Assembly (NCBI GenBank): GCA_947652115.1
Contig: OX393565.1
Location: 10,846,214 to 10,910,213 of the forward strand
Source of the DNA: Blastomussa wellsi
Taxonomy: Eukaryota; Cnidaria; Anthozoa; Scleractinia; Plerogyridae
DNA length: 64,000 nucleotides
Reading direction: 5' to 3'
Shown here: positions 5,855 to 52,875 of the stretch, piece by piece
Numbering within the stretch: position 1 is the first letter of the stretch
Layout: each line of letters starts with the position of its first letter
Program-made: the position numbers and the translations under genes
Notes under the pieces: model-generated
What the model saw: only the letters and a program-made list of their open reading frames with translations
What the model was told of the DNA's origin: nothing
The model's database searches: none

Positions 5855-5865
5855 CTCCTGATCAA

Positions 5866-7760: not shown

Positions 7761-8780
7761 AAGTTGTCCGGGATTCTTTGCGAACAAGAGGAGTTTCAGA
7801 GAAAGCTTCAGCAGTTATCCTCAACTCCTGGAGAGGAACCACTCAGAAACAATACCAAGTCTACCTTAAAAAGTGGTACAGTTTTTGCAGTAAAAGGGGT
7901 TTTGATCCCTGCGCAGTTTCTCCCGTAAAGGCTCTGGATTTCTTGGCTGAGTTGTTGGAACAGGGCTTAGGTTACAGCGCGCTTAACACTGCCAGATCTG
8001 CTTTGTCACAAGTACTACCTGCTCAAGCTGGAGTTTCGTTTGGAGAATTACCTCTTACCAAACAATTCATGAAAGGGGTTTTTCAAGAGAAGCCCTCTCT
8101 TCCCCGATACACAGTTACCTGGGATCCAGTTTTGCTGCTCAGTTTTCTCAGAAGCCAGCCTCCAAATGAAAAACTAGACCTTAAAATGTTGACTTTTAAA
8201 ACTGTGACTTTGTTAACCTTCTTATCAGCCCAGAGGATACAAACTGTTCATTTATTTGATATTCGTAATACGACTGTTAGTGATTCCATTGTTAAAGTTT
8301 CTATTGGAGATAAGTTGAAACAAACCAGGCCAGGTCATCATCTCCATGAACTTGAATTTCCAGCTTATTCTCCTGATCAACAACTTTGTCCAGTTTCAGT
8401 TGTTAAACAATATTTAACTCAGACAAAGCTTCTTCGGGGCAAGATTACAAACCTATTTATCAGTTTTGTAAAACCCTATAAGTCAGTTAGTTAAAGTACA
8501 ATTTCACGCTGGGTTAAAACCACTTTAGGTCTCGCAGGAGTCGATCTGACTTGTTTTAAACCACACAGCATTAGGGCAGCATCTAGCTCTGCTGCATCTC
8601 AGGCAAGTGTCCCTCTTGCAACCATTCTTCGCACAGCAGGTTGGTCAAGTGTCGTCTGTTTGGACCCACCCAAGTTTTATGACCAATTCTGTGTCGCATT
8701 TGTTCACTCTCTCAAATTTGAATTCTGGGATTGGATGGTGCAATCTCATGTGATCCCTTTACACTTCGTGATGATGGGAT
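7760..8780 (+). pseudogene. DIRS tyrosine recombinase, nonsense-mutated
   Basis: A phage-integrase-like N-terminal SAM-like domain (VILNSWRGTTQKQYQVYLKKW, about 7800-7890) precedes the catalytic domain. First Arg in LSAQRIQT (about 8234), then HSIR (about 8565-8575, the HxxR box), GW (about 8640) and a candidate nucleophile Tyr in KFYDQF (about 8679). An in-frame TAA at 8492-8494 separates the first Arg from HxxR, so the enzyme is truncated. The recombinase normally inserts the circular DNA intermediate without target duplication. Its 5' part overlaps the end of the preceding frame. Confidence 0.8.
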
Positions 8781-22190: not shown

Positions 22191-23230
22191 ATGTCTGTGA
22201 AATCGCTACCTGTTCCCGATAAATCTCGTCGAAAACATGTGCGAGAAGCTTCGTCGGATGTTGGTGTTGAAAATTCCCTGCAATTGAGAAAAAGTAGCCG
22301 CTTGAAGATGGCAAATAAGACAAGTGATGTGGAAGGTGAAAGAGCCGAAAGGACAAGAGCCATGTTTAAATCCCGAGCCGGATACATCGGCGCTCTAAAA
22401 AGGCTGCAAGGAAACATTGAAGAGCTTATGGAAAACTGTGGAACTTTGGAGGATTTGAAGTCCAAGCGGAAATCGTATGACGAAATTTGGCGCAAATTCG
22501 TAAGTACACACGAAGAATACATTGAATTACTTTGTTATGAGGAAGAGCTCGAGAAGGCTCGCCTTAGTTATGATGAACAAATGTCAAGGAAATTAAAGTG
22601 CACCTAACCCCAAAATATTTTTTTCGCTAGAATAAACCTTTGCACCACTTTGAAACGCATTGCACCTTTTTACCAAATTCTGACTATTTATAGCATTCAA
22701 AAGTTACGATAAACTGTGCATCATTTGTTCCACGACCGAGTCAGAAGGGGCGTGGGTCTATTCCCGATTTGACGTCACAAACTGATTTGCATGCATTTTT
22801 ACAAAGAGTTGATGTGATGCAAATCATTTTGTGACGTCAAATCGGGAATAGACCCATGCCCCTTCTGACTCGGCCGTGTAACAAATGATGCACAGTTTTT
22901 CATAACGTTTGAATGCTATAAATAGCCAGAATTTGGTAAAAAGGAGAAACGAAAGGTGCAATGCGTTTCAAACTGGTGCAATGGTATATTTTAGCAAAAA
23001 AAATATTTTGGGGTTAGGTGCACTTTAACCTTTGACAATGTTATGGAGTCTTGGTTTAAGAAGTCGAGGCTTGAATCGAAGGAAGTGAGCGAAAGGTCGT
23101 TATCATTGACCAGAAAATCTAGAAGAAGTCATGAAAGTAAATCGTCATATTCTAGTTCAATTTCATCGTCGGTCGTAAAGAGAAAAGAGAAATTAGCTCT
23201 TGCACAGTTGAAAACAAAACAGTTACTTAA
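22191..23230 (+). pseudogene. BEL gag N-terminal part, unit 1, split by MITE and piggyBac
   Basis: ATG 22191 opens MSVKSLPVPDKSRRKHVR, then an R/K-rich linker and a coiled coil (GALKRLQGNIEELMENC, FVSTHEEYIELL, LCYEEELEKARLSYDEQMSR). A 428-bp MITE interrupts at a TTAA (22593-22596). The frame resumes after its second TTAA (23025-23028) and stays open to the piggyBac insertion at TTAA 23227-23230. Both junctions are in phase, so before these insertions this was one frame. Coiled-coil N-termini are usual in BEL/Pao gag. The rest of gag starts at 33651. Confidence 0.75.
22597..23024. mobile_element. Palindromic TTAA MITE (428 bp), unit 1
   Basis: Ends AGTGCACCTAACCCC and its complement, between TTAA duplications (22593-22596, 23025-23028). 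The element is a foldback over nearly its whole length: blocks such as GAGTCAGAAGGGG, TCTATTCCCGATTTGACGTC and AATGCTATAAATAG recur inverted around a centre near 22800. It has no coding capacity. TTAA targets point to a piggyBac or Kolobok transposase as mobiliser. Confidence 0.85.
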
Positions 23231-24589
23231 CCCTTTCACTACTGGAGCGGCCAACCGGAAATGGCCAATTATTCCTAGAGCGGCCAAAAGCGGCCAAATA
23301 AACATACCCATTTTTAACTTACCCTCTCTTCCCTTAGCAACATTTTGTATATCAAAACAAAAGCGCTATTGTTAAAATAAGCATTGGCCAATCAAATCCT
23401 CTGGACTGCGCATATGATTTGTACTCCCATGTAGAGTAGTGAGCGGTCAAATTTCTCATTTTGCTACAGCACACGAGAGACATGGCGCAACCTTCGATCC
23501 TCACTGCGGAAGAATATCACGATATTTTCGGTACTTCGGATGAAGAAGATGGCGATATAGATCCTGAAGGCTCTGATATCAAAGTTCAAGAATTCGATAG
23601 CGACGAAGAGGCAGAAGAAAACAACAATGAAGGCAATGTGGCTGATGCAATCGATGAAGAAGCCGCGTGGTCAAATGAGCTTTCGGACTTTGTAATATCT
23701 CAATTTAATGGCCTATGTGGAATAAAAGTTGAAGTTCCAGCAGAGGCAACGTCTGATTTCTTTTTCAATTTAATATTTGGGGATGAATTGATCAATTTAA
23801 TTGTCAGGGAGACAAATAGATATGCTCGACAAAAGCTCGAAGGAAACAACGCTCGACTCGCGAAGTGACAAGATACAACTCGCCAAGAAGTGAAAGCTTA
23901 TCTTGGCATCTGCCTTGTGATGGGTATAAACAACCTTCCGAGACTAGCAATGTACTGGTCTTCAGATCCATTTATTGGCAACACTGGTATACAAAATGTT
24001 ATGACAAAAAATAGATTTGAGGAACTTAGCCAGTATTTGCATTTTTCAAATTCGGCAACAGAGCCGCAGCGTGGCGAAGAGAATTTTGATCGCCTTTATA
24101 AGGTTCGAGCACTTCTTTCGGGAGTTTTGGAGAACGCTCAAAAAGCCTACGAGCCGTCAAAAAGCCTCTCCATCGATGAGGGGATGATTGCTTTCAAAGG
24201 CAGGTTATCATTTCGGCAATATATGCCAGCGAAACCAACGAAATACGGCATCAAAGTCTGGATGGCGGCCGATTCGCAAAATGGCTATGTAAACAACTTC
24301 TCTGTTTACCTTGGCAAAGAAGCAAACGTTCCTCGTGTCAACGGCCTAGGTTATGATGTTGTGATGAAAATGGCCACTCCATTTCTAAAAAGGCACAGGC
24401 ATATATTTTTCGATAATTTTTTTTTACTAGCACGAAGCTTATGGAAGACCTGCTAGCTCAAGACACCTACGCTTGTGGCACTGTGCGAAGCAATCGCAAA
24501 GACTTGCCGCCATGTGCAAAGAACAAACTTCGCCAAGGGGAAAAAGTGTCCTCTCAGCGCGGAAAAATCGTTTTCACGAAATGGCATGA

Positions 24590-24595
24590 CAAAAG
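24590..24595. repeat. IS3EU-like target duplication CAAAAG, left, unit 1
   Basis: CAAAAG here matches 32639-32644. Deleting one copy plus the element rejoins the piggyBac frame exactly (KWHDKR / DISFLSTN). Confidence 0.9.
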
Positions 24596-24715
24596 TACAG
24601 TGGCCTATAAGGGACATCAAAACCTGTTTGTTTTATTTTCAAGGAACTAAAAAAATTGCACCTTTACAGGTCTTGGTTTGATTTTTATTTGGTTAATTCT
24701 AAAGTTTATTTGTTA

Positions 24716-24935
24716 AAACTCAAGATTTTTGAGAAACTCAACTTTCTTTTAGAAAACTGTAGTCGTTGCAGTTAAAAACCCGACCTTTTTCTAAGAAAGC
24801 GCCAGTTTTTTTTTAAAACTCCACTTAAAAAACTCAATTAATATTTATTTGAAAACTCAACATTTTTTTAATAGAAAAAACTCAACTTTAAAAAAACTCA
24901 ACTTTTTTTTTGAAAAACTCAACTTTTTGAAAACT
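24716..24935 (+). repeat. Left subterminal ACTCAAC array, unit 1
   Basis: Several copies of an AAACTCAACTTT-like word separated by A/T runs. The right end (32127-32500) has a longer array of the complement (AAAGTTGAGTTT). They may be transposase-binding sites. Confidence 0.7.
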
Positions 24936-24996
24936 TTTGTCACTCATAAGAAATGATACTGCAATCCTTTTGAATGCGGGCTCATTGCGATCCAAG

Positions 24997-27900
24997 ATGG
25001 CGGAAGAGAGGGATCCTCTAAGCGATGTGAGTATACTTGTGATTATAGCAATGACAATGTATACCTGCTTAGTTTAATACAATGCCATGCTAAAAGCGTT
25101 TTTCGAATAGCTATTAGAGAGGGCTATTCTGCCTTATATTTTAACATTGACTTTGTCTACAAGCTAGTGCCGCAGTCGTTTAGGCCTCATCTGCATCGGC
25201 AAACGAAAACTGTAGTTGTTAATATCTCGATTTCTCTATGCAACAAGAGACATTTGCAACAACGTTGGCATAAATACTTTTGACTTTGGCATAAATACTT
25301 TTGACTTAAGCATTCATGTTTCAGTTTCAGGCTAGAAGTTGTCAGTTGGTCAATTTTTATGAGTTTGAAGGTGTACACTGCATTTCCGACGAAAGCAACC
25401 TCGGCATAAGCTTTATATATTACGTATAAATCAGGCCATATTTTTCATGTCTTCCGATTAAAAAAGAAGATAGGCCACCCAAATTCACGGTCTGTTATCA
25501 AGAATGTGACAATTGCTTATGAGTAAGGATTCTAAAATTGGTAGGTGTTTGTTGTTTGTTTGTAAGTGTATTGATTTGGAGATTGCAGACACAGATTTCT
25601 GGGAGGGGGAGGAAGGAGTCCTTTGTTTTTGCAAAAATAAATCATTACAATAAGTGTATTGATTGGTTGATGTTTGAATAAGGGGTGGTGGGGAGAAGCT
25701 TTTTCGTTAATTACTGTAATGATAATTTTTTACAATAAATGTATTGATTTGGGTATTGGAGACTTTGGAGAATTTTTTTTTGGGGGGGGGGTGGGTAGGG
25801 GGGTTGAGAGAGGTTCTAAAACACTGCAAAAAGAAAGACATTGTTTGTTCTGTTAGCAGTGAATACCCAAATAAAAAATAGATTATTGAAATCACTTTAA
25901 ATCAGCCTCCATCACAAATAACCAAGCTTATAACACAACAGTGGGTCAACTCTATTTTGTTTAAAAAACAGTCAAATCAATACCTTTTAAAATGAAACAG
26001 TTCCATTTAATATAAAAACAAATAATTACAGGTAATTTTCTCTACTACCCTATATGCTGGCATAGCATAGAGGATCGTAGAGGAACTCAACTGCTGACAG
26101 GTAAGCAACTTCCTTACAAATCAAATGCTGTTCATGAGTGAGAAAATGTGAATAAAAAATGGTGGCAATATTGAGGAAGAAGAAATCTCTTTATTTTATT
26201 GATTTCAGGTTTTAGATTTCTTGAAGTGTGAGTTGAAGTTGGATGTTGTTAAAAAATTTAGGAGTGAAAAGGTTAGTGTGATGGGCCAATAAGTTGGTTT
26301 TGTGGTTCGTTCAAGTGCAACAATCATGCTTTATTTATCCAATAGCTGTAGGTTGATGTGGAATTGTTATCATTTTGTAGCGATGAGCTCTGGAAACTAG
26401 TCATATGAATGGAAGACTGAATAAAATACAAAAAAAAGTACATTTAGAAAATAAATACATGACATTTGTGTACTTTTTCATGAACAATAATTATTAATTT
26501 TTCTAAAATACCAATGGAAGGTGAGAGATGTCACCTTAACAGTATTGTAAATATCACATGAAGTGATTGTCAGCCATTACTTGCAGAAGTTTTAGTAACT
26601 GTGAACCGGCTTTCCTATCTTCAATTTAATAGTTATCGGTTCAGCATTTATTTTTATAGAGCACTCCTGTAATTGTGTGAAGCTGATATATTTTTCTATA
26701 TTTATCAGTTCTCCTTTCAAGTTTCACAGCTACACAGTTGGATATTCATTCAGTTGTTTTCTCATTTATTCATTCATTCATTCATTCATTCATTCATTCA
26801 TTCCTTCCTTCGTTCCTTCCTCCCTTCCTTCCTTCATTCATTCATTCATCCATTTATTTCATTTTTTTTCACATAAACCAGGTTGACAAGGCGGCAGTGT
26901 TAATTATGTCAGACGAGGCGTTAGCTGACTTAGGTGTTGTAGCAGCTGGCGATAGAGCTAAACTTCGAGCATTTTGTGAAGGAGAGAATAATTTAAAAGA
27001 TGAGAAAAGGGCTGAAATGAAAAGAAAGTTGACGGAAATCTTAGAAGCTTCCAAAAGTCGTAGAGCGTCAGGAAAATCAGCAAAAAAGACCAAGGTAGCC
27101 CCACAAGGTCCAAAGAAAACCACTTTGAAGTTTGAATTACGTTGGAAGCACTACGTGGAAGGTGCCGGCTTCAAGCTCAAAAGGTCCGAACAGGGGGGTG
27201 GGGTAAGAACAGTAGACCTCCCAAGAGATGCAACCGCCAATGACTGCCTCCTGGAACTAAAAGGCACCTTTTTTCCAAATGGTGTAAGCCCCGTGGGTAA
27301 CGCAGACGACATGGAATTTACACTGGCAGATTTTAAATGCCAGAAAATCAACATGGGAGACAACTTTTCCCCTGAAAGTTACAAGAAAGAAAACCGCCTC
27401 AATACTCCCCGTTTGTTTCTCCTTAGTCGAGACAAGGGATCGATGTCGGAGGAGTCAGATAATGAGGATTTGATGAAGTCTCCATTTGATTCGTCCAGTA
27501 CGAGAGATAGGTTGCTCAACAGCTCTGGACCAGACACTGTGAATCTTGATCCTATATGTATCACATCGAAAGAAGATGAATCCTTGGGAAATTCAGCTAA
27601 AGAGAACGACCTATCTAACGAGGTTGGCTTGGCAAGAACACATTCAGAAGATGACACCTCCGAATGTGCAAGGGATGGCTTGATTAGAACATCTGAAGAA
27701 CGTAAAGAATTAATTGATCGCCTTAATGCAAATTACCAGGTGTCTCTGGCTGTCGACAGAGAGAAGAGACTGCAGCAGGAGGAAAGGGATCGAAGAGAGG
27801 TTCTTCGAGTGTCGAGAGAGAATCGAGTCTTGTACGAACCGGCCCCAAATAAACCACGCGTGACGGTCTCCGTACGTCATCCAAAGCTTGGGGTTATCAA

Positions 27901-29344
27901 AAGAGCGTTTCCTACGGGCTGCAAAGTGTCGGCGTTGTATGATTGGGTGGGCTCATTATCCACTGATCCGGAGCATTTTTCACTCGCCTTTAGCCGTCAA
28001 GGAATTATTTATCCGGAAGAAGACATTAGCTCCATTGCGTCGTCGATGCTTTGTATGTCACAATGTGAATTCCCCATTCCCCTATGCAAGGATGAGGACG
28101 AGGTTTCATTTTATAACGGTCGATGTGATAGCAACCATGATGACACAATTCCAGATCAGGAGTCGCATCAAGAGCTCCCCATTTCCATGCACGAGGAGAA
28201 CGATGATACTAACTTGCTAAGTGCACAACATTTCTTTGCCGAAGTCCCACTTCGTCCCCCCGTACAGTTACTGGTAGACGATCCAGAGATCTCCCCTGGA
28301 GAGCAAGCTGCCCTACAGGAACTGAATGTCAGGCAAGAAGAGGTCAAAGGAAAATTTGAAAACGTGATGACAAAAGAGATCAGTCGGCACAATTGTGTCC
28401 ATGAGCTGTTGACTTTGTATCAGGACGAAACAATTGTTAACCATGAGCTTATATTTTCAATGAGAGACGAAGATGCAGCTGGAGAGGGCGTGCGTAGAGA
28501 AGTCTATTCTGTCTTTTGGGACAGTTTCGTTTCCAGTTACTGCGAGGGAAGCTCTCACTTCACTTTCTCCGTCTCTGCAGCGTTATCACAAGGCGACTTT
28601 GTTGCTATTGGCCGTCTTTTAACTCATCAGTTTATCCAGACGGGCACCTTTCCACTGCAGATATCAGAAGCCATCATACAGCAAGCGGTTGTCGGGAAAG
28701 TTGCAGACGAATGTTTGATGCAGTCCTTCCTAAGGCTGCTGCATGAAAAGGAAAGAGAGATTCTTCAACAGGCTATGCTTGGAAAGAAACCATTTCCCAC
28801 AGAAGATGTGGTGGAGATCCTGTCTGATTATGGCGTCACAACAATGCCAAGTGATTCTAACATTGGAAAGATATTGCTTCAAGTAGCTGAAACAGAACTG
28901 ATTTCAAAGCCCTTTCTCTACATTACCAATCTAAGGAAAGGAATGGGGCCATTCTGGGATGATGTCACAGAGAAGGAGATTCATGCTCTCTACAGTGTCT
29001 GCACTCCAACCGCTTTAAATGTTTTACAAAGTCTTGAGATCAGTGTTGCCGATCAACAAGAATCCAGAGTTTCAAGGTGGCTCACCCGGTACATAAAAAG
29101 CAAAGACCACAAGTTACTTGGTAGGTTCCTTCGCTTCTGTACTGGAAGCAACATCGTGCTGCCTTACAAGCCCATTAAAGTCAACTTTGTGAGTATGAGC
29201 AATACAGCCATTCGCCCCAAAGCTACCACCTGCTTCAATCTTCTCACACTCCCAAAAAGTTATAGGACAATGGTACATTTGAGTGATAACTTAGATTTCT
29301 ATTTGAACAATCCACACCTGTGGGATTTAAGTGACATGGCATGA
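24997..29344 (+). CDS. SAM / ubiquitin-like / HECT E3-ligase-type protein carried by the transposon, unit 1
   Basis: Exons 24997-25026 (MAEERDPLSD, start AAGATGGCGG), 26209-26271 and 26882-29344, all phase 0, give 851 residues. Residues about 11-62 form a SAM-like domain (VLDFLKCELKLDVVKKFRSE, LADLGVVAAGDRAKLRAF). A GGGVRTVDLPRDA ... GTFFPNG block (about 115-165) is a segment I associate with multicopy HECT proteins. A UBX-like ubiquitin fold lies at about 356-428 (VRHPKLGVIKRAFPTG, LAFSRQGIIYPEEDI). The HECT domain occupies about 545-851, with catalytic Cys about 815 in KATTCFNLLTLPKS, 36 residues from the end as in active ligases. Similar to G2E3-like proteins. The introns (25027-26208 and 26272-26881) hold microsatellites, including (TTCA)n at 26763-26850. 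Probable role: ubiquitin transfer; its target and its benefit to the transposon are unknown. Confidence 0.85.
26763..26850 (+). repeat. (TTCA)n / (TTCC)n microsatellite in HECT intron, unit 1
   Basis: ATTC repeats degrade into CTTC repeats. They keep an artefactual upstream frame open in front of the true exon at 26882. Repeated at 45988-46075. Confidence 0.9.
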
Positions 29345-30784
29345 CAAAGAAAAGGAACTTGACGTTATTCATGTGAGAATATGTATAGGTTATCCTTGCT
29401 AACTAGCTACATATATAGCATCAGTGGTTATTGAAGTTGCAATTATGTTGTCTTTTTTTACACGAGTTTTGTTTGAATTGATAATTTAACATGTTGTATG
29501 CATTGTAACTTTGTTTGTGATTTTTTTTTATCTTTAACTAATATTGAATCAGTGCTAATGGCGAAGGATAAGTGGATAAGTGCACAAGTATTACGGGTAA
29601 ACGATCTTTCGTTTTATTGTACATGTTCCGGTTGTGTTTATCTTTGAGTGAAAGACATTAATTTGTAAGGAACAGTTTTTGGAGAACAAACATTGTTAAT
29701 ATTCCATTATATTACGATTTGATTGTTGGACTTCTCGTTTTGAAGGGGAGGGATCATTGTTTTGTTTGTTATTATAGATTTGAGAAAATAAAGCCACTTA
29801 AAAATTGTTATGCCAGCCCGAGTTGCGAAAACTCTATCCAATTTTTTTTTAGATTTAGCACTCGCCGATTGTTTAAGTAGGTTATCCGTTGAAATCGATT
29901 GAATGGTTTCATACTACTTTATAACAAAATTGAACATTGCATTTCTGAGTACTGTATAATGGGAGTTACTGTTGTTGTTGTTATCTTACGAGATGCCCTT
30001 CTTCAAGAGATATATTTCGTTTTCTATAAACTGTACTACTTTTAAGCTCATTAATGAGAATAAAGTGCAATGTTGAGTTTAGTTTATGATCTATCCAATT
30101 CCAAGACGATTAAAATTTGGGTACTTTATGCCTTAACTTCATCATTGCCACACTCGAACATTTCTATCCGCCCCCCCCCCTCCCCTCCCCCATTTCAATT
30201 TTGAACCCTTCATGAATAGTGATTGCCAGCGCATGAGTTGGGAAGCTCAACATTGAAAAGGGGAGGGGGGAGGAAGGAAATAAATTTCTGATCGTGCCAA
30301 TAGTTTTGTCCATGGTTGTAGGTAGTGATTACAGGACTAACACTTTCAGCCGTTCCTTCTTCGAATATGCTAATACTATTTTTTTCTCATGCTTAATAAC
30401 AACATTGTGTAGCTAATTAAAAACTAAATTAAACTGAGCAACACTCAGATGTCCGTGTTTACCATGCACAGAATCGGTGAACAATTTCGACATTAGAAAC
30501 TCTCTTCAAAAACGCAAACTTGATGGAGAGCTTGTAAACAGGATCCTAAGTGACGTAAATAACGATCCTCCGAGAAGAAAAATGAAATGTGCGCTCTGCT
30601 CCGCTCGCATGGCTCACCAATCACACTTTCCCTCTTTTCACCTTACTAGGGATCCTGCTCACAGGCTATCCAATAATTAAGAGAACGACGTGCTTCTTTA
30701 TCTAAGCACAAATAATTCATTATTTTGTTCAAGGATGCTGCTTGTTTAATTTAATTCTTAGTGTCCGAAACGAAACCTAGATTG
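29345..30784. other. Intergenic region between the two transposon genes, unit 1
   Basis: No supported gene. It holds AATAAA-type signals (for example ATAAAG near 29790) and a C-rich tract (about 30170-30191) that is partly complementary to a G-rich tract (about 30257-30276). A 67-codon frame at 30477-30680 has no recognisable domain. It repeats at 48570-50009. Confidence 0.6.
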
Positions 30785-31981
30785 TCAGATCATGTTCTCG
30801 ATGTGATAAAGCAGTTCGCCGTATAGATCTGACGCCTCCACGGGTGTTGTCAGCATTTGCAGATTATTGTCAACCATTATCATTTGTGCAAGTTCCACAA
30901 ATGTCTCGTCGACTTGTAGGATTTGATTCTCACAGCACAATTCCTCAGCCACTGCCAATTCCTCATCATCTACAGATTTAAGATAACTACTTGCTCCCTG
31001 TAATTCTGGCAAAAAATACAAAACATCTGGTCGTCCTGGTGGAGATTCTTGATTCAAAGATGGCCTGATTTTGTGAAGATTCCAATGTTGCGCAACACGA
31101 TTGAGTTCTTCCTGAAGTATAGGTGTAAAGCAGAACCTCAAACTTTCTACATGCAACGGGTTATCATCGCAATATAAACCAACATCTCTTAAATCCTTAA
31201 AAAAATTGATCCACCAATCAGTGTCATTATTACGTAGGAATGACCACCAAGCCTCAATCCTCTGGTTAGATACTGAACGACCATAAAGGAAACTTTTTTC
31301 CCCAGCCATTGAGTCCGTTCCATTTCTTCTAAAAAAAGTTTGCATACCAGCAATATTTACATTTTCTGTGCCTCCGTCTCCCCTTATAGTTCGTGGAACA
31401 CCTCCCAGTTGCTTTACACAATCCAAGTAGTAATGCGCTATGATGCGAGGATTATTATTCGACGGTCCCACCTCAAGCCATAGAATTCGACGGCTGTATC
31501 CATCAATCACTCCATGAATACACAGTCCAAAAGGTTTCAATTTATCATACCCATCTAGATGCCATATGAAGCTTGGTCCCTTGGCCGAGTATGTCCTCCG
31601 TTTTAACCTGTGTTGTGACCTCCTCTCGACACCATCAGGGTCAAGTAGTTTCAGAGCATGTCGAACTGTCTCCCTACTTACAACCAAGCCATAATCAACG
31701 CGAAGCCTTTGATGCATCTGACGGTATCCAATCAGGCTACCGGATCCATTTAGCTCCCTTTCTATCGCTGCAATAACTTCTTCCACATCGCTGTGATTTC
31801 TTCTCCTACACAAACCTTTCGAGAAAAGCACCCTCTTAAGTTGACGGAGGCTGAGACGTATTCCATGTATGAGTAAAAGGAAACTTAGTATTTCTGAGTA
31901 ATCCAGTCCAAGATTAAAATAACATTCGATCAAAGAATTGCGATCAGAATTTCCTGGTGTTACTGGAATGTACACCGGCAT
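30785..31981 (-). CDS. IS3EU-like rve/DDE integrase (transposase), unit 1
   Basis: From ATG 31981 (MPVYIPVTPGNSDRN) about 398 residues run without a stop. An N-terminal helix-turn-helix-like part (LSLRQLKRVLFSKGL, GYRQMHQRLRVDYGLVVSRE) resembles IS3-type orfB proteins. The catalytic core has D1 in IWHLDGYDKL (about 31555), D2 in TIRGDGGTEN (about 31380) and E in NQRIEAWWSFLR (about 31255), with 40 residues between D2 and E, then LHKIRPSLNQESPPGRPDVL. The protein should catalyse cut-and-paste with 6-bp staggering. A frame extending to 32113 includes GTAAGG...GACCAG, which I read as an intron in the 5' untranslated region, so I prefer the start at 31981. A CAAGATGG motif precedes that intron. 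Confidence 0.85.
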   Translation of the reverse strand: MPVYIPVTPGNSDRNSLIECYFNLGLDYSEILSFLLLIHGIRLSLRQLKRVLFSKGLCRRRNHSDVEEVIAAIERELNGSGSLIGYRQMHQRLRVDYGLVVSRETVRHALKLLDPDGVERRSQHRLKRRTYSAKGPSFIWHLDGYDKLKPFGLCIHGVIDGYSRRILWLEVGPSNNNPRIIAHYYLDCVKQLGGVPRTIRGDGGTENVNIAGMQTFFRRNGTDSMAGEKSFLYGRSVSNQRIEAWWSFLRNNDTDWWINFFKDLRDVGLYCDDNPLHVESLRFCFTPILQEELNRVAQHWNLHKIRPSLNQESPPGRPDVLYFLPELQGASSYLKSVDDEELAVAEELCCENQILQVDETFVELAQMIMVDNNLQMLTTPVEASDLYGELLYHIENMI

Positions 31982-32126
31982 CGTGCTTGCACTGGTCGAT
32001 AAGCATAGGAGAAAACAAACAATACAAAAATGTAAACTTATTTTCTTCGTCCTTACCACCATCTTGTCGCGTTGTGAGCATGCGTTCCACGACCTTGCGG
32101 TGTTAGGTACCATTCTCCTGCTTTTG

Positions 32127-32500
32127 AAAAAAAAGCTGAGTTTTCAAGCTTTGTAAAAAGATTGAGTTTTTTTTTTAAAAAAAGATGAGTTTTCTTTTGA
32201 AAAAAAAAGTTGAGTTTTTGTTCTATAAAAAAAGTTGGGAGTTTTGACGGTTTTTTATAAAAACGTTGAGTTCTTTTTTTAAAAAAAGCTGATTCTTTTA
32301 AAAAAAAGTTGAGTTTTTTCAAAAAGAGTTGAGTTTCTTTTTTAAAGTTGAGTTTTCAAATAAGTTGACTATTTTTAAAATGGAGTTTAAAAAAAAAACA
32401 AACTGGCCCTTTCTAAAAAAAGTCCGGTTTTTTACTACGAAGACTAGAATTTTTTTAAAAGAAAGTCGAGTTTCTAAAAAAAGCCTGAGTTTTAAAAAAT
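32127..32500 (-). repeat. Right subterminal GTTGAGTTT array, unit 1
   Basis: Roughly ten or more degenerate AAAGTTGAGTTTT words in A/T-rich spacers, inverted relative to the left array. It lies immediately upstream of the integrase gene, so it may also affect its promoter. Confidence 0.7.
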
Positions 32501-33650
32501 AGACTTCACTAAAAAACGAACAAATCTTGAATTAGCCAAATAAAAATCAAACCAAGACCTGGACTGGAAAGCTGCTAATTTTTTTTAGTTCCTTGAAAAT
32601 AAAACAAATAGTTTTGATGTCCCTTATGGGCCACCGTACAAAAGAGACATTTCTTTCTTGTCCACAAATGTTTTGCCTAGCGAGCCATCACGCCTTGTTC
32701 CACGGAAAAAGAACGGGCAAAATATTCAAATTGAGAAGCCCCGTGTTGCTGACGTTTACACAGCGAACATGGGCGGTGTTGACCGAGCTGACCAGCTTCG
32801 GTCTTTTTATTTCGCCGGTTATTCCTTGCGAAAATGGTATAGGAATATCTTTTGGTTTTTATTTAATCTTTCTGTTTGCAATGGCTACATTCTTGAGTCA
32901 ATTTATCGTACTACTCAAGGAAAACAAAAGCGCCCGCTGATCAGCTTCAGGCTTGATTTGGCAAAACAACTGATAAATGATTTCAGCCAAAGGAAGAGAA
33001 AAAGAAGATCACAGGAGGCTCTACAACAGCCAGTACCTCGCGTGTTACATGTTTCAGTTCATGTGGAGGGTAGGAAGCGAAAGTGTTTTCAATGCAGTAA
33101 GGCCGGGCGAAGACCACCGAAAGGATACAAAGTCGAGACGCGCTTCGAGTGTCGTTTGTGCAAGGTTGCGCTATGCAAACCATGCCACAATGAATACCAC
33201 GCTTGAGTGTAAAATTTTATTGTCCTTTATTTCTTTTGTGTTGAAATACAATGATATTCAATGGCGTGTATCAATGGCTTTGTATTTTGCTATGCATTTC
33301 TTTCCATAAAGGAAAGTTGTTATCCCATTCTCTGTACATATTTAGCTTTGAACATCTAGAGGCGTTTCGTGACAAATAATTATAATGGCGGAAAATTAGA
33401 ATTTTTTATCGTGTTGATACTTTCAAGTTAAAATGTATTCATATCCAGATAGCAATGTACATCTTTTTCATGGTTAACAGTAAAGCAACCATTTTTCTTT
33501 ATTTCTGTGGTCTTTTATTTCAATATCTTGCCTTAGAAACCTACTGAGCATGTATATTTTGATTTCTACTTCAAAAATACCTGTCGACCTTAATTTGCTA
33601 CAGGAACAGAGGGGGTTGACCTCATTTGCATATAGTAGTGAAAGGGTTAA

Positions 33651-42455: not shown

Positions 42456-44221
42456 CCCTTTCACTACTGGAGCGGCCAACCGGAAATGGCCAATTATTCC
42501 TAGAGCGGCCAAAAGCGGCCAAATAAACATACCCATTTTTAACTTACCCTCTCTTCCCTTAGCAACATTTTGTATATCAAAACAAAAGCGCTATTGTTAA
42601 AATAAGCATTGGCCAATCAAATCCTCTGGACTGCGCATATGATTTGTACTCCCATGTAGAGTAGTGAGCGGTCAAATTTCTCATTTTGCTACAGCACACG
42701 AGAGACATGGCGCAACCTTCGATCCTCACTGCGGAAGAATATCACGATATTTTCGGTACTTCGGATGAAGAAGATGGCGATATAGATCCTGAAGGCTCTG
42801 ATATCAAAGTTCAAGAATTCGATAGCGACGAAGAGGCAGAAGAAAACAACAATGAAGGCAATGTGGCTGATGCAATCGATGAAGAAGCCGCGTGGTCAAA
42901 TGAGCTTTCGGACTTTGTAATATCTCAATTTAATGGCCTATGTGGAATAAAAGTTGAAGTTCCAGCAGAGGCAACGTCTGATTTCTTTTTCAATTTAATA
43001 TTTGGGGATGAATTGATCAATTTAATTGTCAGGGAGACAAATAGATATGCTCGACAAAAGCTCGAAGGAAACAACGCTCGACTCGCGAAGTGACAAGATA
43101 CAACTCGCCAAGAAGTGAAAGCTTATCTTGGCATCTGCCTTGTGATGGGTATAAACAACCTTCCGAGACTAGCAATGTACTGGTCTTCAGATCCATTTAT
43201 TGGCAACACTGGTATACAAAATGTTATGACAAAAAATAGATTTGAGGAACTTAGCCAGTATTTGCATTTTTCAAATTCGGCAACAGAGCCGCAGCGTGGC
43301 GAAGAGAATTTTGATCGCCTTTATAAGGTTCGAGCACTTCTTTCGGGAGTTTTGGAGAACGCTCAAAAAGCCTACGAGCCGTCAAAAAGCCTCTCCATCG
43401 ATGAGGGGATGATTGCTTTCAAAGGCAGGTTATCATTTCGGCAATATATGCCAGCGAAACCAACGAAATACGGCATCAAAGTCTGGATGGCGGCCGATTC
43501 GCAAAATGGCTATGTAAACAACTTCTCTGTTTACCTTGGCAAAGAAGCAAACGTTCCTCGTGTCAACGGCCTAGGTTATGATGTTGTGATGAAAATGGCC
43601 ACTCCATTTCTAAAAAGGCACAGGCATATATTTTTCGATAATTTTTTTTTACTAGCACGAAGCTTATGGAAGACCTGCTAGCTCAAGACACCTACGCTTG
43701 TGGCACTGTGCGAAGCAATCGCAAAGACTTGCCGCCATGTGCAAAGAACAAACTTCGCCAAGGGGAAAAAGTGTCCTCTCAGCGCGGAAAAATCGTTTTC
43801 ACGAAATGGCATGACAAAAGTACAGTGGCCTATAAGGGACATCAAAACCTGTTTGTTTTATTTTCAAGGAACTAAAAAAATTGCACCTTTACAGGTCTTG
43901 GTTTGATTTTTATTTGGTTAATTCTAAAGTTTATTTGTTAAAACTCAAGATTTTTGAGAAACTCAACTTTCTTTTAGAAAACTGTAGTCGTTGCAGTTAA
44001 AAACCCGACCTTTTTCTAAGAAAGCGCCAGTTTTTTTTTAAAACTCCACTTAAAAAACTCAATTAATATTTATTTGAAAACTCAACATTTTTTTAATAGA
44101 AAAAACTCAACTTTAAAAAAACTCAACTTTTTTTTTGAAAAACTCAACTTTTTGAAAACTTTTGTCACTCATAAGAAATGATACTGCAATCCTTTTGAAT
44201 GCGGGCTCATTGCGATCCAAG

Positions 44222-47200
44222 ATGGCGGAAGAGAGGGATCCTCTAAGCGATGTGAGTATACTTGTGATTATAGCAATGACAATGTATACCTGCTTAGTTT
44301 AATACAATGCCATGCTAAAAGCGTTTTTCGAATAGCTATTAGAGAGGGCTATTCTGCCTTATATTTTAACATTGACTTTGTCTACAAGCTAGTGCCGCAG
44401 TCGTTTAGGCCTCATCTGCATCGGCAAACGAAAACTGTAGTTGTTAATATCTCGATTTCTCTATGCAACAAGAGACATTTGCAACAACGTTGGCATAAAT
44501 ACTTTTGACTTTGGCATAAATACTTTTGACTTAAGCATTCATGTTTCAGTTTCAGGCTAGAAGTTGTCAGTTGGTCAATTTTTATGAGTTTGAAGGTGTA
44601 CACTGCATTTCCGACGAAAGCAACCTCGGCATAAGCTTTATATATTACGTATAAATCAGGCCATATTTTTCATGTCTTCCGATTAAAAAAGAAGATAGGC
44701 CACCCAAATTCACGGTCTGTTATCAAGAATGTGACAATTGCTTATGAGTAAGGATTCTAAAATTGGTAGGTGTTTGTTGTTTGTTTGTAAGTGTATTGAT
44801 TTGGAGATTGCAGACACAGATTTCTGGGAGGGGGAGGAAGGAGTCCTTTGTTTTTGCAAAAATAAATCATTACAATAAGTGTATTGATTGGTTGATGTTT
44901 GAATAAGGGGTGGTGGGGAGAAGCTTTTTCGTTAATTACTGTAATGATAATTTTTTACAATAAATGTATTGATTTGGGTATTGGAGACTTTGGAGAATTT
45001 TTTTTTGGGGGGGGGGTGGGTAGGGGGGTTGAGAGAGGTTCTAAAACACTGCAAAAAGAAAGACATTGTTTGTTCTGTTAGCAGTGAATACCCAAATAAA
45101 AAATAGATTATTGAAATCACTTTAAATCAGCCTCCATCACAAATAACCAAGCTTATAACACAACAGTGGGTCAACTCTATTTTGTTTAAAAAACAGTCAA
45201 ATCAATACCTTTTAAAATGAAACAGTTCCATTTAATATAAAAACAAATAATTACAGGTAATTTTCTCTACTACCCTATATGCTGGCATAGCATAGAGGAT
45301 CGTAGAGGAACTCAACTGCTGACAGGTAAGCAACTTCCTTACAAATCAAATGCTGTTCATGAGTGAGAAAATGTGAATAAAAAATGGTGGCAATATTGAG
45401 GAAGAAGAAATCTCTTTATTTTATTGATTTCAGGTTTTAGATTTCTTGAAGTGTGAGTTGAAGTTGGATGTTGTTAAAAAATTTAGGAGTGAAAAGGTTA
45501 GTGTGATGGGCCAATAAGTTGGTTTTGTGGTTCGTTCAAGTGCAACAATCATGCTTTATTTATCCAATAGCTGTAGGTTGATGTGGAATTGTTATCATTT
45601 TGTAGCGATGAGCTCTGGAAACTAGTCATATGAATGGAAGACTGAATAAAATACAAAAAAAAGTACATTTAGAAAATAAATACATGACATTTGTGTACTT
45701 TTTCATGAACAATAATTATTAATTTTTCTAAAATACCAATGGAAGGTGAGAGATGTCACCTTAACAGTATTGTAAATATCACATGAAGTGATTGTCAGCC
45801 ATTACTTGCAGAAGTTTTAGTAACTGTGAACCGGCTTTCCTATCTTCAATTTAATAGTTATCGGTTCAGCATTTATTTTTATAGAGCACTCCTGTAATTG
45901 TGTGAAGCTGATATATTTTTCTATATTTATCAGTTCTCCTTTCAAGTTTCACAGCTACACAGTTGGATATTCATTCAGTTGTTTTCTCATTTATTCATTC
46001 ATTCATTCATTCATTCATTCATTCATTCCTTCCTTCGTTCCTTCCTCCCTTCCTTCCTTCATTCATTCATTCATCCATTTATTTCATTTTTTTTCACATA
46101 AACCAGGTTGACAAGGCGGCAGTGTTAATTATGTCAGACGAGGCGTTAGCTGACTTAGGTGTTGTAGCAGCTGGCGATAGAGCTAAACTTCGAGCATTTT
46201 GTGAAGGAGAGAATAATTTAAAAGATGAGAAAAGGGCTGAAATGAAAAGAAAGTTGACGGAAATCTTAGAAGCTTCCAAAAGTCGTAGAGCGTCAGGAAA
46301 ATCAGCAAAAAAGACCAAGGTAGCCCCACAAGGTCCAAAGAAAACCACTTTGAAGTTTGAATTACGTTGGAAGCACTACGTGGAAGGTGCCGGCTTCAAG
46401 CTCAAAAGGTCCGAACAGGGGGGTGGGGTAAGAACAGTAGACCTCCCAAGAGATGCAACCGCCAATGACTGCCTCCTGGAACTAAAAGGCACCTTTTTTC
46501 CAAATGGTGTAAGCCCCGTGGGTAACGCAGACGACATGGAATTTACACTGGCAGATTTTAAATGCCAGAAAATCAACATGGGAGACAACTTTTCCCCTGA
46601 AAGTTACAAGAAAGAAAACCGCCTCAATACTCCCCGTTTGTTTCTCCTTAGTCGAGACAAGGGATCGATGTCGGAGGAGTCAGATAATGAGGATTTGATG
46701 AAGTCTCCATTTGATTCGTCCAGTACGAGAGATAGGTTGCTCAACAGCTCTGGACCAGACACTGTGAATCTTGATCCTATATGTATCACATCGAAAGAAG
46801 ATGAATCCTTGGGAAATTCAGCTAAAGAGAACGACCTATCTAACGAGGTTGGCTTGGCAAGAACACATTCAGAAGATGACACCTCCGAATGTGCAAGGGA
46901 TGGCTTGATTAGAACATCTGAAGAACGTAAAGAATTAATTGATCGCCTTAATGCAAATTACCAGGTGTCTCTGGCTGTCGACAGAGAGAAGAGACTGCAG
47001 CAGGAGGAAAGGGATCGAAGAGAGGTTCTTCGAGTGTCGAGAGAGAATCGAGTCTTGTACGAACCGGCCCCAAATAAACCACGCGTGACGGTCTCCGTAC
47101 GTCATCCAAAGCTTGGGGTTATCAAAAGAGCGTTTCCTACGGGCTGCAAAGTGTCGGCGTTGTATGATTGGGTGGGCTCATTATCCACTGATCCGGAGCA

Positions 47201-48569
47201 TTTTTCACTCGCCTTTAGCCGTCAAGGAATTATTTATCCGGAAGAAGACATTAGCTCCATTGCGTCGTCGATGCTTTGTATGTCACAATGTGAATTCCCC
47301 ATTCCCCTATGCAAGGATGAGGACGAGGTTTCATTTTATAACGGTCGATGTGATAGCAACCATGATGACACAATTCCAGATCAGGAGTCGCATCAAGAGC
47401 TCCCCATTTCCATGCACGAGGAGAACGATGATACTAACTTGCTAAGTGCACAACATTTCTTTGCCGAAGTCCCACTTCGTCCCCCCGTACAGTTACTGGT
47501 AGACGATCCAGAGATCTCCCCTGGAGAGCAAGCTGCCCTACAGGAACTGAATGTCAGGCAAGAAGAGGTCAAAGGAAAATTTGAAAACGTGATGACAAAA
47601 GAGATCAGTCGGCACAATTGTGTCCATGAGCTGTTGACTTTGTATCAGGACGAAACAATTGTTAACCATGAGCTTATATTTTCAATGAGAGACGAAGATG
47701 CAGCTGGAGAGGGCGTGCGTAGAGAAGTCTATTCTGTCTTTTGGGACAGTTTCGTTTCCAGTTACTGCGAGGGAAGCTCTCACTTCACTTTCTCCGTCTC
47801 TGCAGCGTTATCACAAGGCGACTTTGTTGCTATTGGCCGTCTTTTAACTCATCAGTTTATCCAGACGGGCACCTTTCCACTGCAGATATCAGAAGCCATC
47901 ATACAGCAAGCGGTTGTCGGGAAAGTTGCAGACGAATGTTTGATGCAGTCCTTCCTAAGGCTGCTGCATGAAAAGGAAAGAGAGATTCTTCAACAGGCTA
48001 TGCTTGGAAAGAAACCATTTCCCACAGAAGATGTGGTGGAGATCCTGTCTGATTATGGCGTCACAACAATGCCAAGTGATTCTAACATTGGAAAGATATT
48101 GCTTCAAGTAGCTGAAACAGAACTGATTTCAAAGCCCTTTCTCTACATTACCAATCTAAGGAAAGGAATGGGGCCATTCTGGGATGATGTCACAGAGAAG
48201 GAGATTCATGCTCTCTACAGTGTCTGCACTCCAACCGCTTTAAATGTTTTACAAAGTCTTGAGATCAGTGTTGCCGATCAACAAGAATCCAGAGTTTCAA
48301 GGTGGCTCACCCGGTACATAAAAAGCAAAGACCACAAGTTACTTGGTAGGTTCCTTCGCTTCTGTACTGGAAGCAACATCGTGCTGCCTTACAAGCCCAT
48401 TAAAGTCAACTTTGTGAGTATGAGCAATACAGCCATTCGCCCCAAAGCTACCACCTGCTTCAATCTTCTCACACTCCCAAAAAGTTATAGGACAATGGTA
48501 CATTTGAGTGATAACTTAGATTTCTATTTGAACAATCCACACCTGTGGGATTTAAGTGACATGGCATGA
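44222..48569 (+). CDS. SAM / ubiquitin-like / HECT protein, unit 2
   Basis: Exons 44222-44251, 45434-45496 and 46107-48569. The predicted protein is the same as that of unit 1, with catalytic Cys at about 48456-48458. If the duplication is real, the locus has two intact copies of this ligase-type gene. Confidence 0.85.
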
Positions 48570-50009
48570 CAAAGAAAAGGAACTTGACGTTATTCATGTG
48601 AGAATATGTATAGGTTATCCTTGCTAACTAGCTACATATATAGCATCAGTGGTTATTGAAGTTGCAATTATGTTGTCTTTTTTTACACGAGTTTTGTTTG
48701 AATTGATAATTTAACATGTTGTATGCATTGTAACTTTGTTTGTGATTTTTTTTTATCTTTAACTAATATTGAATCAGTGCTAATGGCGAAGGATAAGTGG
48801 ATAAGTGCACAAGTATTACGGGTAAACGATCTTTCGTTTTATTGTACATGTTCCGGTTGTGTTTATCTTTGAGTGAAAGACATTAATTTGTAAGGAACAG
48901 TTTTTGGAGAACAAACATTGTTAATATTCCATTATATTACGATTTGATTGTTGGACTTCTCGTTTTGAAGGGGAGGGATCATTGTTTTGTTTGTTATTAT
49001 AGATTTGAGAAAATAAAGCCACTTAAAAATTGTTATGCCAGCCCGAGTTGCGAAAACTCTATCCAATTTTTTTTTAGATTTAGCACTCGCCGATTGTTTA
49101 AGTAGGTTATCCGTTGAAATCGATTGAATGGTTTCATACTACTTTATAACAAAATTGAACATTGCATTTCTGAGTACTGTATAATGGGAGTTACTGTTGT
49201 TGTTGTTATCTTACGAGATGCCCTTCTTCAAGAGATATATTTCGTTTTCTATAAACTGTACTACTTTTAAGCTCATTAATGAGAATAAAGTGCAATGTTG
49301 AGTTTAGTTTATGATCTATCCAATTCCAAGACGATTAAAATTTGGGTACTTTATGCCTTAACTTCATCATTGCCACACTCGAACATTTCTATCCGCCCCC
49401 CCCCCTCCCCTCCCCCATTTCAATTTTGAACCCTTCATGAATAGTGATTGCCAGCGCATGAGTTGGGAAGCTCAACATTGAAAAGGGGAGGGGGGAGGAA
49501 GGAAATAAATTTCTGATCGTGCCAATAGTTTTGTCCATGGTTGTAGGTAGTGATTACAGGACTAACACTTTCAGCCGTTCCTTCTTCGAATATGCTAATA
49601 CTATTTTTTTCTCATGCTTAATAACAACATTGTGTAGCTAATTAAAAACTAAATTAAACTGAGCAACACTCAGATGTCCGTGTTTACCATGCACAGAATC
49701 GGTGAACAATTTCGACATTAGAAACTCTCTTCAAAAACGCAAACTTGATGGAGAGCTTGTAAACAGGATCCTAAGTGACGTAAATAACGATCCTCCGAGA
49801 AGAAAAATGAAATGTGCGCTCTGCTCCGCTCGCATGGCTCACCAATCACACTTTCCCTCTTTTCACCTTACTAGGGATCCTGCTCACAGGCTATCCAATA
49901 ATTAAGAGAACGACGTGCTTCTTTATCTAAGCACAAATAATTCATTATTTTGTTCAAGGATGCTGCTTGTTTAATTTAATTCTTAGTGTCCGAAACGAAA
50001 CCTAGATTG

Positions 50010-51206
50010 TCAGATCATGTTCTCGATGTGATAAAGCAGTTCGCCGTATAGATCTGACGCCTCCACGGGTGTTGTCAGCATTTGCAGATTATTGTCAACC
50101 ATTATCATTTGTGCAAGTTCCACAAATGTCTCGTCGACTTGTAGGATTTGATTCTCACAGCACAATTCCTCAGCCACTGCCAATTCCTCATCATCTACAG
50201 ATTTAAGATAACTACTTGCTCCCTGTAATTCTGGCAAAAAATACAAAACATCTGGTCGTCCTGGTGGAGATTCTTGATTCAAAGATGGCCTGATTTTGTG
50301 AAGATTCCAATGTTGCGCAACACGATTGAGTTCTTCCTGAAGTATAGGTGTAAAGCAGAACCTCAAACTTTCTACATGCAACGGGTTATCATCGCAATAT
50401 AAACCAACATCTCTTAAATCCTTAAAAAAATTGATCCACCAATCAGTGTCATTATTACGTAGGAATGACCACCAAGCCTCAATCCTCTGGTTAGATACTG
50501 AACGACCATAAAGGAAACTTTTTTCCCCAGCCATTGAGTCCGTTCCATTTCTTCTAAAAAAAGTTTGCATACCAGCAATATTTACATTTTCTGTGCCTCC
50601 GTCTCCCCTTATAGTTCGTGGAACACCTCCCAGTTGCTTTACACAATCCAAGTAGTAATGCGCTATGATGCGAGGATTATTATTCGACGGTCCCACCTCA
50701 AGCCATAGAATTCGACGGCTGTATCCATCAATCACTCCATGAATACACAGTCCAAAAGGTTTCAATTTATCATACCCATCTAGATGCCATATGAAGCTTG
50801 GTCCCTTGGCCGAGTATGTCCTCCGTTTTAACCTGTGTTGTGACCTCCTCTCGACACCATCAGGGTCAAGTAGTTTCAGAGCATGTCGAACTGTCTCCCT
50901 ACTTACAACCAAGCCATAATCAACGCGAAGCCTTTGATGCATCTGACGGTATCCAATCAGGCTACCGGATCCATTTAGCTCCCTTTCTATCGCTGCAATA
51001 ACTTCTTCCACATCGCTGTGATTTCTTCTCCTACACAAACCTTTCGAGAAAAGCACCCTCTTAAGTTGACGGAGGCTGAGACGTATTCCATGTATGAGTA
51101 AAAGGAAACTTAGTATTTCTGAGTAATCCAGTCCAAGATTAAAATAACATTCGATCAAAGAATTGCGATCAGAATTTCCTGGTGTTACTGGAATGTACAC
51201 CGGCAT
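50010..51206 (-). CDS. IS3EU-like rve/DDE integrase, unit 2
   Basis: Same 398-residue protein as 30785-31981, with the IWHLDGYDKL, IRGDGGTEN and NQRIEAWW motifs intact. Confidence 0.85.
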   Translation of the reverse strand: MPVYIPVTPGNSDRNSLIECYFNLGLDYSEILSFLLLIHGIRLSLRQLKRVLFSKGLCRRRNHSDVEEVIAAIERELNGSGSLIGYRQMHQRLRVDYGLVVSRETVRHALKLLDPDGVERRSQHRLKRRTYSAKGPSFIWHLDGYDKLKPFGLCIHGVIDGYSRRILWLEVGPSNNNPRIIAHYYLDCVKQLGGVPRTIRGDGGTENVNIAGMQTFFRRNGTDSMAGEKSFLYGRSVSNQRIEAWWSFLRNNDTDWWINFFKDLRDVGLYCDDNPLHVESLRFCFTPILQEELNRVAQHWNLHKIRPSLNQESPPGRPDVLYFLPELQGASSYLKSVDDEELAVAEELCCENQILQVDETFVELAQMIMVDNNLQMLTTPVEASDLYGELLYHIENMI

Positions 51207-52875
51207 CGTGCTTGCACTGGTCGATAAGCATAGGAGAAAACAAACAATACAAAAATGTAAACTTATTTTCTTCGTCCTTACCACCATCTTGTCGCGTTGT
51301 GAGCATGCGTTCCACGACCTTGCGGTGTTAGGTACCATTCTCCTGCTTTTGAAAAAAAAGCTGAGTTTTCAAGCTTTGTAAAAAGATTGAGTTTTTTTTT
51401 TAAAAAAAGATGAGTTTTCTTTTGAAAAAAAAAGTTGAGTTTTTGTTCTATAAAAAAAGTTGGGAGTTTTGACGGTTTTTTATAAAAACGTTGAGTTCTT
51501 TTTTTAAAAAAAGCTGATTCTTTTAAAAAAAAGTTGAGTTTTTTCAAAAAGAGTTGAGTTTCTTTTTTAAAGTTGAGTTTTCAAATAAGTTGACTATTTT
51601 TAAAATGGAGTTTAAAAAAAAAACAAACTGGCCCTTTCTAAAAAAAGTCCGGTTTTTTACTACGAAGACTAGAATTTTTTTAAAAGAAAGTCGAGTTTCT
51701 AAAAAAAGCCTGAGTTTTAAAAAATAGACTTCACTAAAAAACGAACAAATCTTGAATTAGCCAAATAAAAATCAAACCAAGACCTGGACTGGAAAGCTGC
51801 TAATTTTTTTTAGTTCCTTGAAAATAAAACAAATAGTTTTGATGTCCCTTATGGGCCACCGTACAAAAGAGACATTTCTTTCTTGTCCACAAATGTTTTG
51901 CCTAGCGAGCCATCACGCCTTGTTCCACGGAAAAAGAACGGGCAAAATATTCAAATTGAGAAGCCCCGTGTTGCTGACGTTTACACAGCGAACATGGGCG
52001 GTGTTGACCGAGCTGACCAGCTTCGGTCTTTTTATTTCGCCGGTTATTCCTTGCGAAAATGGTATAGGAATATCTTTTGGTTTTTATTTAATCTTTCTGT
52101 TTGCAATGGCTACATTCTTGAGTCAATTTATCGTACTACTCAAGGAAAACAAAAGCGCCCGCTGATCAGCTTCAGGCTTGATTTGGCAAAACAACTGATA
52201 AATGATTTCAGCCAAAGGAAGAGAAAAAGAAGATCACAGGAGGCTCTACAACAGCCAGTACCTCGCGTGTTACATGTTTCAGTTCATGTGGAGGGTAGGA
52301 AGCGAAAGTGTTTTCAATGCAGTAAGGCCGGGCGAAGACCACCGAAAGGATACAAAGTCGAGACGCGCTTCGAGTGTCGTTTGTGCAAGGTTGCGCTATG
52401 CAAACCATGCCACAATGAATACCACGCTTGAGTGTAAAATTTTATTGTCCTTTATTTCTTTTGTGTTGAAATACAATGATATTCAATGGCGTGTATCAAT
52501 GGCTTTGTATTTTGCTATGCATTTCTTTCCATAAAGGAAAGTTGTTATCCCATTCTCTGTACATATTTAGCTTTGAACATCTAGAGGCGTTTCGTGACAA
52601 ATAATTATAATGGCGGAAAATTAGAATTTTTTATCGTGTTGATACTTTCAAGTTAAAATGTATTCATATCCAGATAGCAATGTACATCTTTTTCATGGTT
52701 AACAGTAAAGCAACCATTTTTCTTTATTTCTGTGGTCTTTTATTTCAATATCTTGCCTTAGAAACCTACTGAGCATGTATATTTTGATTTCTACTTCAAA
52801 AATACCTGTCGACCTTAATTTGCTACAGGAACAGAGGGGGTTGACCTCATTTGCATATAGTAGTGAAAGGGTTAA

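Follow-up and report, generated by a model that had tools for sequence, protein, structure and literature searches.

A HECT ligase-type gene recurs as the convergent partner of IS3EU-like transposases in the coral Blastomussa wellsi

A 64,000-nt stretch of Blastomussa wellsi DNA (contig OX393565.1, positions 10,846,214-10,910,213 of the forward strand; hereafter the window) contains an 8,043-bp DNA transposon in which a HECT ligase-type gene faces an integrase-like transposase gene (Table 1). The ligase gene appears to be a regular partner rather than a chance passenger, and we are highly confident that it recurs across this transposon group. The explanation that we favour, with moderate confidence, is an IS3EU/GingerRoot-type cut-and-paste transposon with two genes, in which the convergent HECT gene is a strongly favoured partner with a role directed at the host. 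Taken by itself, the host-directed role of the ligase is evenly balanced.

The left terminus of the element is TACAGTGGCC (24596-24605), and the right terminus, which stops at 32638, reads TACGGTGGCC on the minus strand; the two are slightly non-identical, with one mismatch. The element is inserted in a piggyBac remnant (DDE_Tnp_1_7, Pfam). An exact CAAAAG stands at both flanks, and removal of the insert together with one CAAAAG leaves an open piggyBac transposase frame that is continuous across the joint. Inverted termini and a frame-restoring duplication had both been proposed in a sequence-only reading of the window, and both are borne out; the piggyBac gene itself is not intact, because its own frame changes upstream of the insertion site (remnant at 23920-24456 and 32769-33206). 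The longer inverted repeats are 77% identical across 371 aligned columns. Mirror-oriented AACTCAAC arrays near the two ends comprise 8 and 9 sites, whereas 500 shuffles of each region averaged 0.34 and 0.42 and never exceeded 3; the arrays are probably binding sites of the transposase.

Separate insertions elsewhere in the genome show the same organization. The HECT genome search gave 64 matches, with the best 56 of 144 candidates scored. At two loci on contig C9, the HECT protein is 99% identical to that of the window, transposase matches of 94% and 99% adjoin it, the boundaries lie exactly at element positions 1 and 8043, and each insertion has its own duplication (GCTGCC and TCCTAA). A second subfamily, with copies of 4,816-4,837 bp on C1, C8 and C4 that are >99.9% identical, is bounded by TACGATGGCCCAGAAGG and has the duplications ACACTC, CAATCC and ACATTG. 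Its transposase is 48% identical to that of the window, and one TAA lies inside the transposase matches. In one of these copies, for which open reading frames (ORFs) were listed, the HECT-type frame spans 657 aa and the transposase frame, convergent to it, 410 aa; HECT and transposase matches are both present in the other two copies. The 657-aa protein was not listed by the Pfam HECT model. It has the Cys motif, and its match to the partner-family profile reaches E 1.2e-198, the profile having been iterated once with the protein itself included. All six insertions, from two subfamilies, thus have TA..TA termini at both ends and 6-bp duplications, and the HECT gene is present in 3 of 3 separate insertions of the window subfamily (one with an interrupted frame) and in 3 of 3 of the second subfamily. 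The near-identical copies show that the element moved in the recent past.

These insertions bear on two alternative origins of the HECT gene. Capture of a single host HECT gene by one element found no support in the genome search and is refuted, because separate insertions, a second subfamily among many diverged ones, and 73 listed convergent pairs (see below) all carry HECT. Alternatively, the HECT gene might be independently mobile and insert beside these transposases, which would agree with the exchange of HECT partners discussed below. Yet the gene lies inside the transposon ends in all 6 insertions for which the ends were determined, and no ends of its own were noticed (no systematic boundary search was made), which makes this alternative very improbable.

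The pairing extends well beyond these six insertions. HECT rows (64 + 118) were merged into 114 loci, and transposase rows (96 + 150) into 210 loci; all pairing counts rest on the loci among the matches listed and are not genome totals. In this set, a transposase locus is present no more than 6 kb away from 73 of the 114 HECT loci, at distances of 645-5,343 bp (median 1,433), and all 73 pairs are convergent. The first searches alone placed 37 of 47 HECT loci within 10 kb of a transposase, 37 of 37 in convergent orientation. Among the other 41 HECT loci are genes that resemble normal host HECT genes with several exons, as well as some isolated relatives of the element gene. From the transposase loci at which no HECT had been detected, we chose 11 and read ~4-5 kb at each. 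Six of these have a HECT gene on the facing strand (L040, L041, L042, L044, L049 and L050; in pieces at L041, L042 and L044), and at one (L048) a kinase gene faces the transposase. At two others, L046 (C10:10807300-10812141) and L047 (C2:17220189-17225000), an IS3EU-like transposase is faced by a 717-aa ORF that is HECT-like by motif only; for P0147, the protein of L046, Pfam gave no HECT, hhalign gave E 0.0069 (probability 5.6), and the N-terminal domain was not significant. Nothing was recognised in the sequence read at the remaining two (L043, L045). The earlier proposal that the HECT gene is a real component of an IS3EU-like element is therefore supported by both separate insertions and recurrent convergent pairing.

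Several points weigh against our reading. The chance expectation for pairing within 6 kb, 0.86, is a guide only, since it assumes uniform placement while copies are non-independent and transposons cluster. No HECT was detected at 137 of the 210 listed transposase loci, and 5 of the 11 sampled loci have no clear HECT. The HECT frame of the second C9 insertion is split by ~1.35 kb, and several other HECT copies are broken. Furthermore, the HECT match of the window protein is remote (E 2e-10), and its HECT domain could be a degenerate or altered enzyme. In answer to the question whether the HECT gene is always inside, the loci without a detected or clear HECT show that the partner is frequent but not universal.

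Splicing of three exons with GT/AG borders yields a protein of exactly 851 residues, whose last Cys, within KATTCFNLL, lies 36 residues from the C-terminus. HECT E3 ligases carry a conserved catalytic Cys near the C-terminus. The HECT match (PF00632) scores 41.3 bits against a curated Pfam cut-off of 23.9, and SAM_2 is found on the spliced N-terminus (E 6.8e-05). Splicing and Pfam thus confirm the claim of an intact HECT protein, convergent to the integrase gene. Of the SAM/ubiquitin-like/HECT architecture that had been suggested, Pfam finds SAM_2 and HECT; UBX, like PAS, is listed below the cut-off in the window protein, and UBX exceeds it in the homologue P0004 (E 1.8e-06). In the Protein Data Bank (PDB), the partner-family profile matches FAF1 chains (E 1.2e-08); a weaker match is to the HECT ligase AREL1 (E 0.0016). 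G2E3 has a HECT C-terminus and an N-terminal PHD/RING region. The window protein resembles G2E3-like proteins in its HECT C-terminus, but the Pfam scan, which listed SAM and HECT, gave no PHD or RING domain.

The transposase gene, convergent to the HECT gene within the element, had been described as an rve-type DDE integrase. Its integrase-type DDE core is upheld by the rva_4 match (Table 1), whereas the plain rve model stays below the Pfam cut-off. No zinc domain was listed by Pfam upstream of the DDE core, where the N-terminal matches are weak helix-turn-helix models; this is in keeping with IS3EU/GingerRoot, in which no HHCC zinc domain precedes the core. The N-terminus of the transposase is signal-peptide-like, with basic residues, a hydrophobic run and then small residues, which is odd for a nuclear enzyme. 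Of 120 homologues listed (P0014-P0133), 92 have at least 30 residues ahead of the conserved domain; an uncharged 12-residue run with a hydropathy of at least 2.0 occurs in 71 of these 92, and such a hydrophobic run followed by a possible cleavage site in 84. Composition partly accounts for the run: the median fraction of shuffles reaching the observed value was 0.05, and it was ≤0.01 in 26 of the 92.

Contrary to expectation, the HECT partner and the transposase do not co-evolve tightly. We compared 22 loci chosen for having both genes, excluding copies such as L036-L038, L041, L042 and L050; their transposases fall into 19 clusters whether the identity threshold is 70% or 80%, and into 12 when it is 60%, and the convergent pairing thus recurs in 19 sampled transposase lineages. 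HECT and transposase distances show almost no correlation (Mantel r 0.12 from 183 usable locus pairs out of 231; 397 of 5000 permutations reached this value). At L052 and L059, the HECT parts are 73% identical over 333 residues and the transposases only 32% over 205; conversely, L062 and L065 have transposases that are 85% identical over 131 residues and HECT parts that are 18% identical over 165. Some comparisons rest on short fragments, and the most divergent HECT parts could be out of alignment, although the L052/L059 comparison is long and clear. L049 and L054, copies of one subfamily, are concordant for both genes. Because the histories of partner and transposase are discordant, HECT partners appear to have been swapped between transposase lineages. 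The partner profile re-found HECT in 16 of the 17 blocks retrieved for paired loci (L051-L068, with L060 excluded); it gave no HECT match at L064, though the PF00632 scan had matched there.

Despite this divergence, the catalytic residues are preserved. The HECT Cys is kept in 20 of 20 loci with a letter in that column (of 22). In the transposase, the three catalytic positions (D, D, E) are likewise intact in 17 of 17, 22 of 22 and 21 of 21 such loci. Both patterns are what selection for the two activities predicts. The same data bear on the alternative that the ligase is neutral cargo, whose genes recombination passes between elements without benefit to them. Discordant histories are compatible with such passive transfer, as are the elements in which HECT is missing or unrecognised and the copies in which it is broken. 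However, passive cargo predicts mixed orientation, unlike the uniformly convergent listed pairs, and it predicts decay, unlike a Cys that persists at HECT identities down to 18%. We therefore consider neutral cargo unlikely.

In one subfamily, a kinase gene faces the transposase in place of a HECT gene. L048 (C2:3894532-3899400) and L060 (C9:16476700-16480600), on two contigs, are 99.3% identical across 3.67 kb and contain a gene whose product has a C-terminal protein kinase domain (Pkinase-type; E 2.1e-53 for P0149). The transposase that it faces is 48-49% identical to that of the window. The N-terminus of the kinase partner scores 24.5 bits against the conserved N-terminal domain of HECT partners, whereas no shuffled decoy exceeded 8.1 (each protein searched was shuffled 200 times); one iteration raised the score to 45.8 bits. 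Both loci begin with TACGAAAGCCGAGGAGGG at the transposase side, with different flanks; the second end of the element was absent from the last kilobase fetched. The kinase gene is likely located between the ends of its element.

How could a ligase serve a transposon? The HECT domain would transfer ubiquitin, with the N-terminal part picking the target and the enzyme end modifying it; as a lead, the UBX-like stretch might recruit p97/VCP. The partner ligase would most likely be directed at the host and favour transposition; that it promotes mobility or counters host control, as the sequence-only reading suggested, would fit this role. One possibility is that it acts on its own transposase, either by limiting the dose or by dismantling the transposition complex via ubiquitin and p97. 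The unfoldase ClpX disassembles the transposition complex of phage Mu. The presence of both genes in one element, in fixed convergent order, and the UBX-like stretch speak for this possibility. It is nevertheless rather doubtful, since HECT and transposase diverge separately, with similar HECT parts accompanying very different transposases and the reverse. A host factor of silencing, chromatin or repair would be the likelier target, because a nearly identical HECT partner accompanies transposases that are only 32% identical. Exchange of partners between very different transposases predicts a ligase target common to them.

The element shares several traits with known systems. According to Kojima (2023; PMC10045372), IS3EU elements have TA..TA termini, usually 6-bp duplications, and an integrase-like DDE transposase, in line with our results. 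HECT and ubiquitin are absent from the main text of that paper, whereas a HECT partner recurs here. In fungal IS3EU, a TET/JBP gene has the transposase gene on one side and, on the other, an alpha-kinase gene in opposite orientation, and TET/JBP genes have been proposed to pass between fungal transposons passively (Kojima, 2025; PMC12730594). Both the partner slot and gene exchange thus have precedents, with a partner opposite the transposase and accessory genes exchanged between transposon lineages. The partners differ: an alpha-kinase and a TET/JBP dioxygenase there, HECT or, in one subfamily, a Pkinase-type partner here. Helitrons are likewise DNA transposons that encode ubiquitin-pathway enzymes, the deubiquitinases VTD and OTU, for which a role has been proposed but not shown (PMC9741609); in contrast to our ligase-type gene, these enzymes remove ubiquitin and belong to another transposon class. 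A search of the open-access literature, which left Repbase entries and subscription journals outside, found no report of HECT pairing with IS3EU.

RAG-like transposons combine a convergent transposase and a RAG2-like partner gene. Their layout is alike, but the transposase is unrelated and the partner here is HECT instead of RAG2-like. Polinton/Maverick elements carry DNA polymerase B and capsid genes; this identity was rejected for our 8-kb element, of which neither of the two long ORFs matches those families.

Protein searches, in which only candidates sharing most words were scored, found at least 13 HECT relatives, plus 13 more by profile (24 rows, 11 known already). The named relatives are from the corals Montipora capricornis and Desmophyllum pertusum. 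Two Desmophyllum pertusum pieces on contigs that differ in length are identical at 149 of 152 positions, as a recent copy would be. The HECT fragment P0139 and the transposase P0016 come from contigs with the same length, 914,443, a hint of linkage that the genome search has since replaced. No related loci were confirmed in viral contigs or in bacterial and archaeal genome contigs.

If our explanation is correct, one group of eukaryotic DNA transposons has a ubiquitin ligase as a recurrent, conserved component, which adds to the TET/JBP dioxygenases of fungal elements and the deubiquitinases of Helitrons. The pairing would offer a testable route by which transposons act on host control, and counts of coral HECT or 'G2/M phase-specific E3 ligase-like' genes may include many transposon genes. 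More tentatively, animal IS3EU-like transposons might possess a modular convergent partner slot, in which a shared N-terminal targeting domain is joined to an exchangeable HECT or kinase end, as a tool against host control that is passed between lineages; many of the HECT or 'G2E3-like' genes that occur in multiple copies in aquatic animals would then be such partners or their descendants.

Table 1. Features of the transposon and its genes in the window (window positions).
Feature	Position	Strand	Basis or remark
Two-gene IS3EU-like transposon, 8,043 bp	24596..32638	.	Ends, duplication, two more same-ended insertions
Left target-site duplication CAAAAG	24590..24595	.	
Right target-site duplication CAAAAG	32639..32644	.	
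Left inverted repeat with subterminal AACTCAAC array	24596..24928	+	8 sites (≤1 mismatch), 24717-24923
Right inverted repeat	32283..32638	-	Mirror AACTCAAC array, 9 sites, 32135-32472
HECT partner gene, exon 1 (MAEERDPLSD)	24997..25026	+	GT border, spliced frame
HECT partner gene, exon 2 (part of SAM domain)	26209..26271	+	AG/GT borders; SAM_2
HECT partner gene, exon 3 including stop codon	26882..29344	+	AG border; ORF 26906-29344
Conserved N-terminal domain (GGG..FFPxG), also in kinase-type partner	27107..27475	+	Profile, residues 68-190
UBX-like stretch	27848..27988	+	Below Pfam cut-off here, above in homologue P0004
HECT domain	28604..29302	+	PF00632 match
Predicted catalytic Cys codon, residue 815/851	29231..29233	+	Conserved column
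DDE integrase-type transposase, 442 aa, D187/D246/E287	30785..32113	-	rva_4 E 1.9e-32
Second element copy, part of 19.2-kb tandem unit, not an independent insertion	43821..51863	.	

The piggyBac remnant sits within a long terminal repeat (LTR) element that looks like BEL/Pao. Its ORFs, read by eye, include zinc knuckle, protease, reverse transcriptase and integrase pieces, of which Pfam gave only a weak protease match. An LTR-like repeat of 192-194 bp occurs three times, and the 5-bp sequence TGCTG was read at the two outer borders of the LTR-flanked region. A unit of 19,225 bp is present twice in tandem (21663-60306), and the two copies are identical except within the third LTR-like repeat. 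This tandem either arose very recently by duplication from LTR to LTR or is an artefact of the assembly. Two separate insertions of the transposon within the window were therefore rejected, as the second copy belongs to the LTR-flanked tandem unit.

Two further observations concern other parts of the window. A stretch of ~436 bp (22593-23028) is its own inverted repeat, with arms that are 85.5% identical, and is fold-back or like a miniature inverted-repeat transposable element (MITE). The ORFs at 4621-8494, read by eye, are retroelement-like, with a reverse transcriptase and a tyrosine-recombinase-like end.

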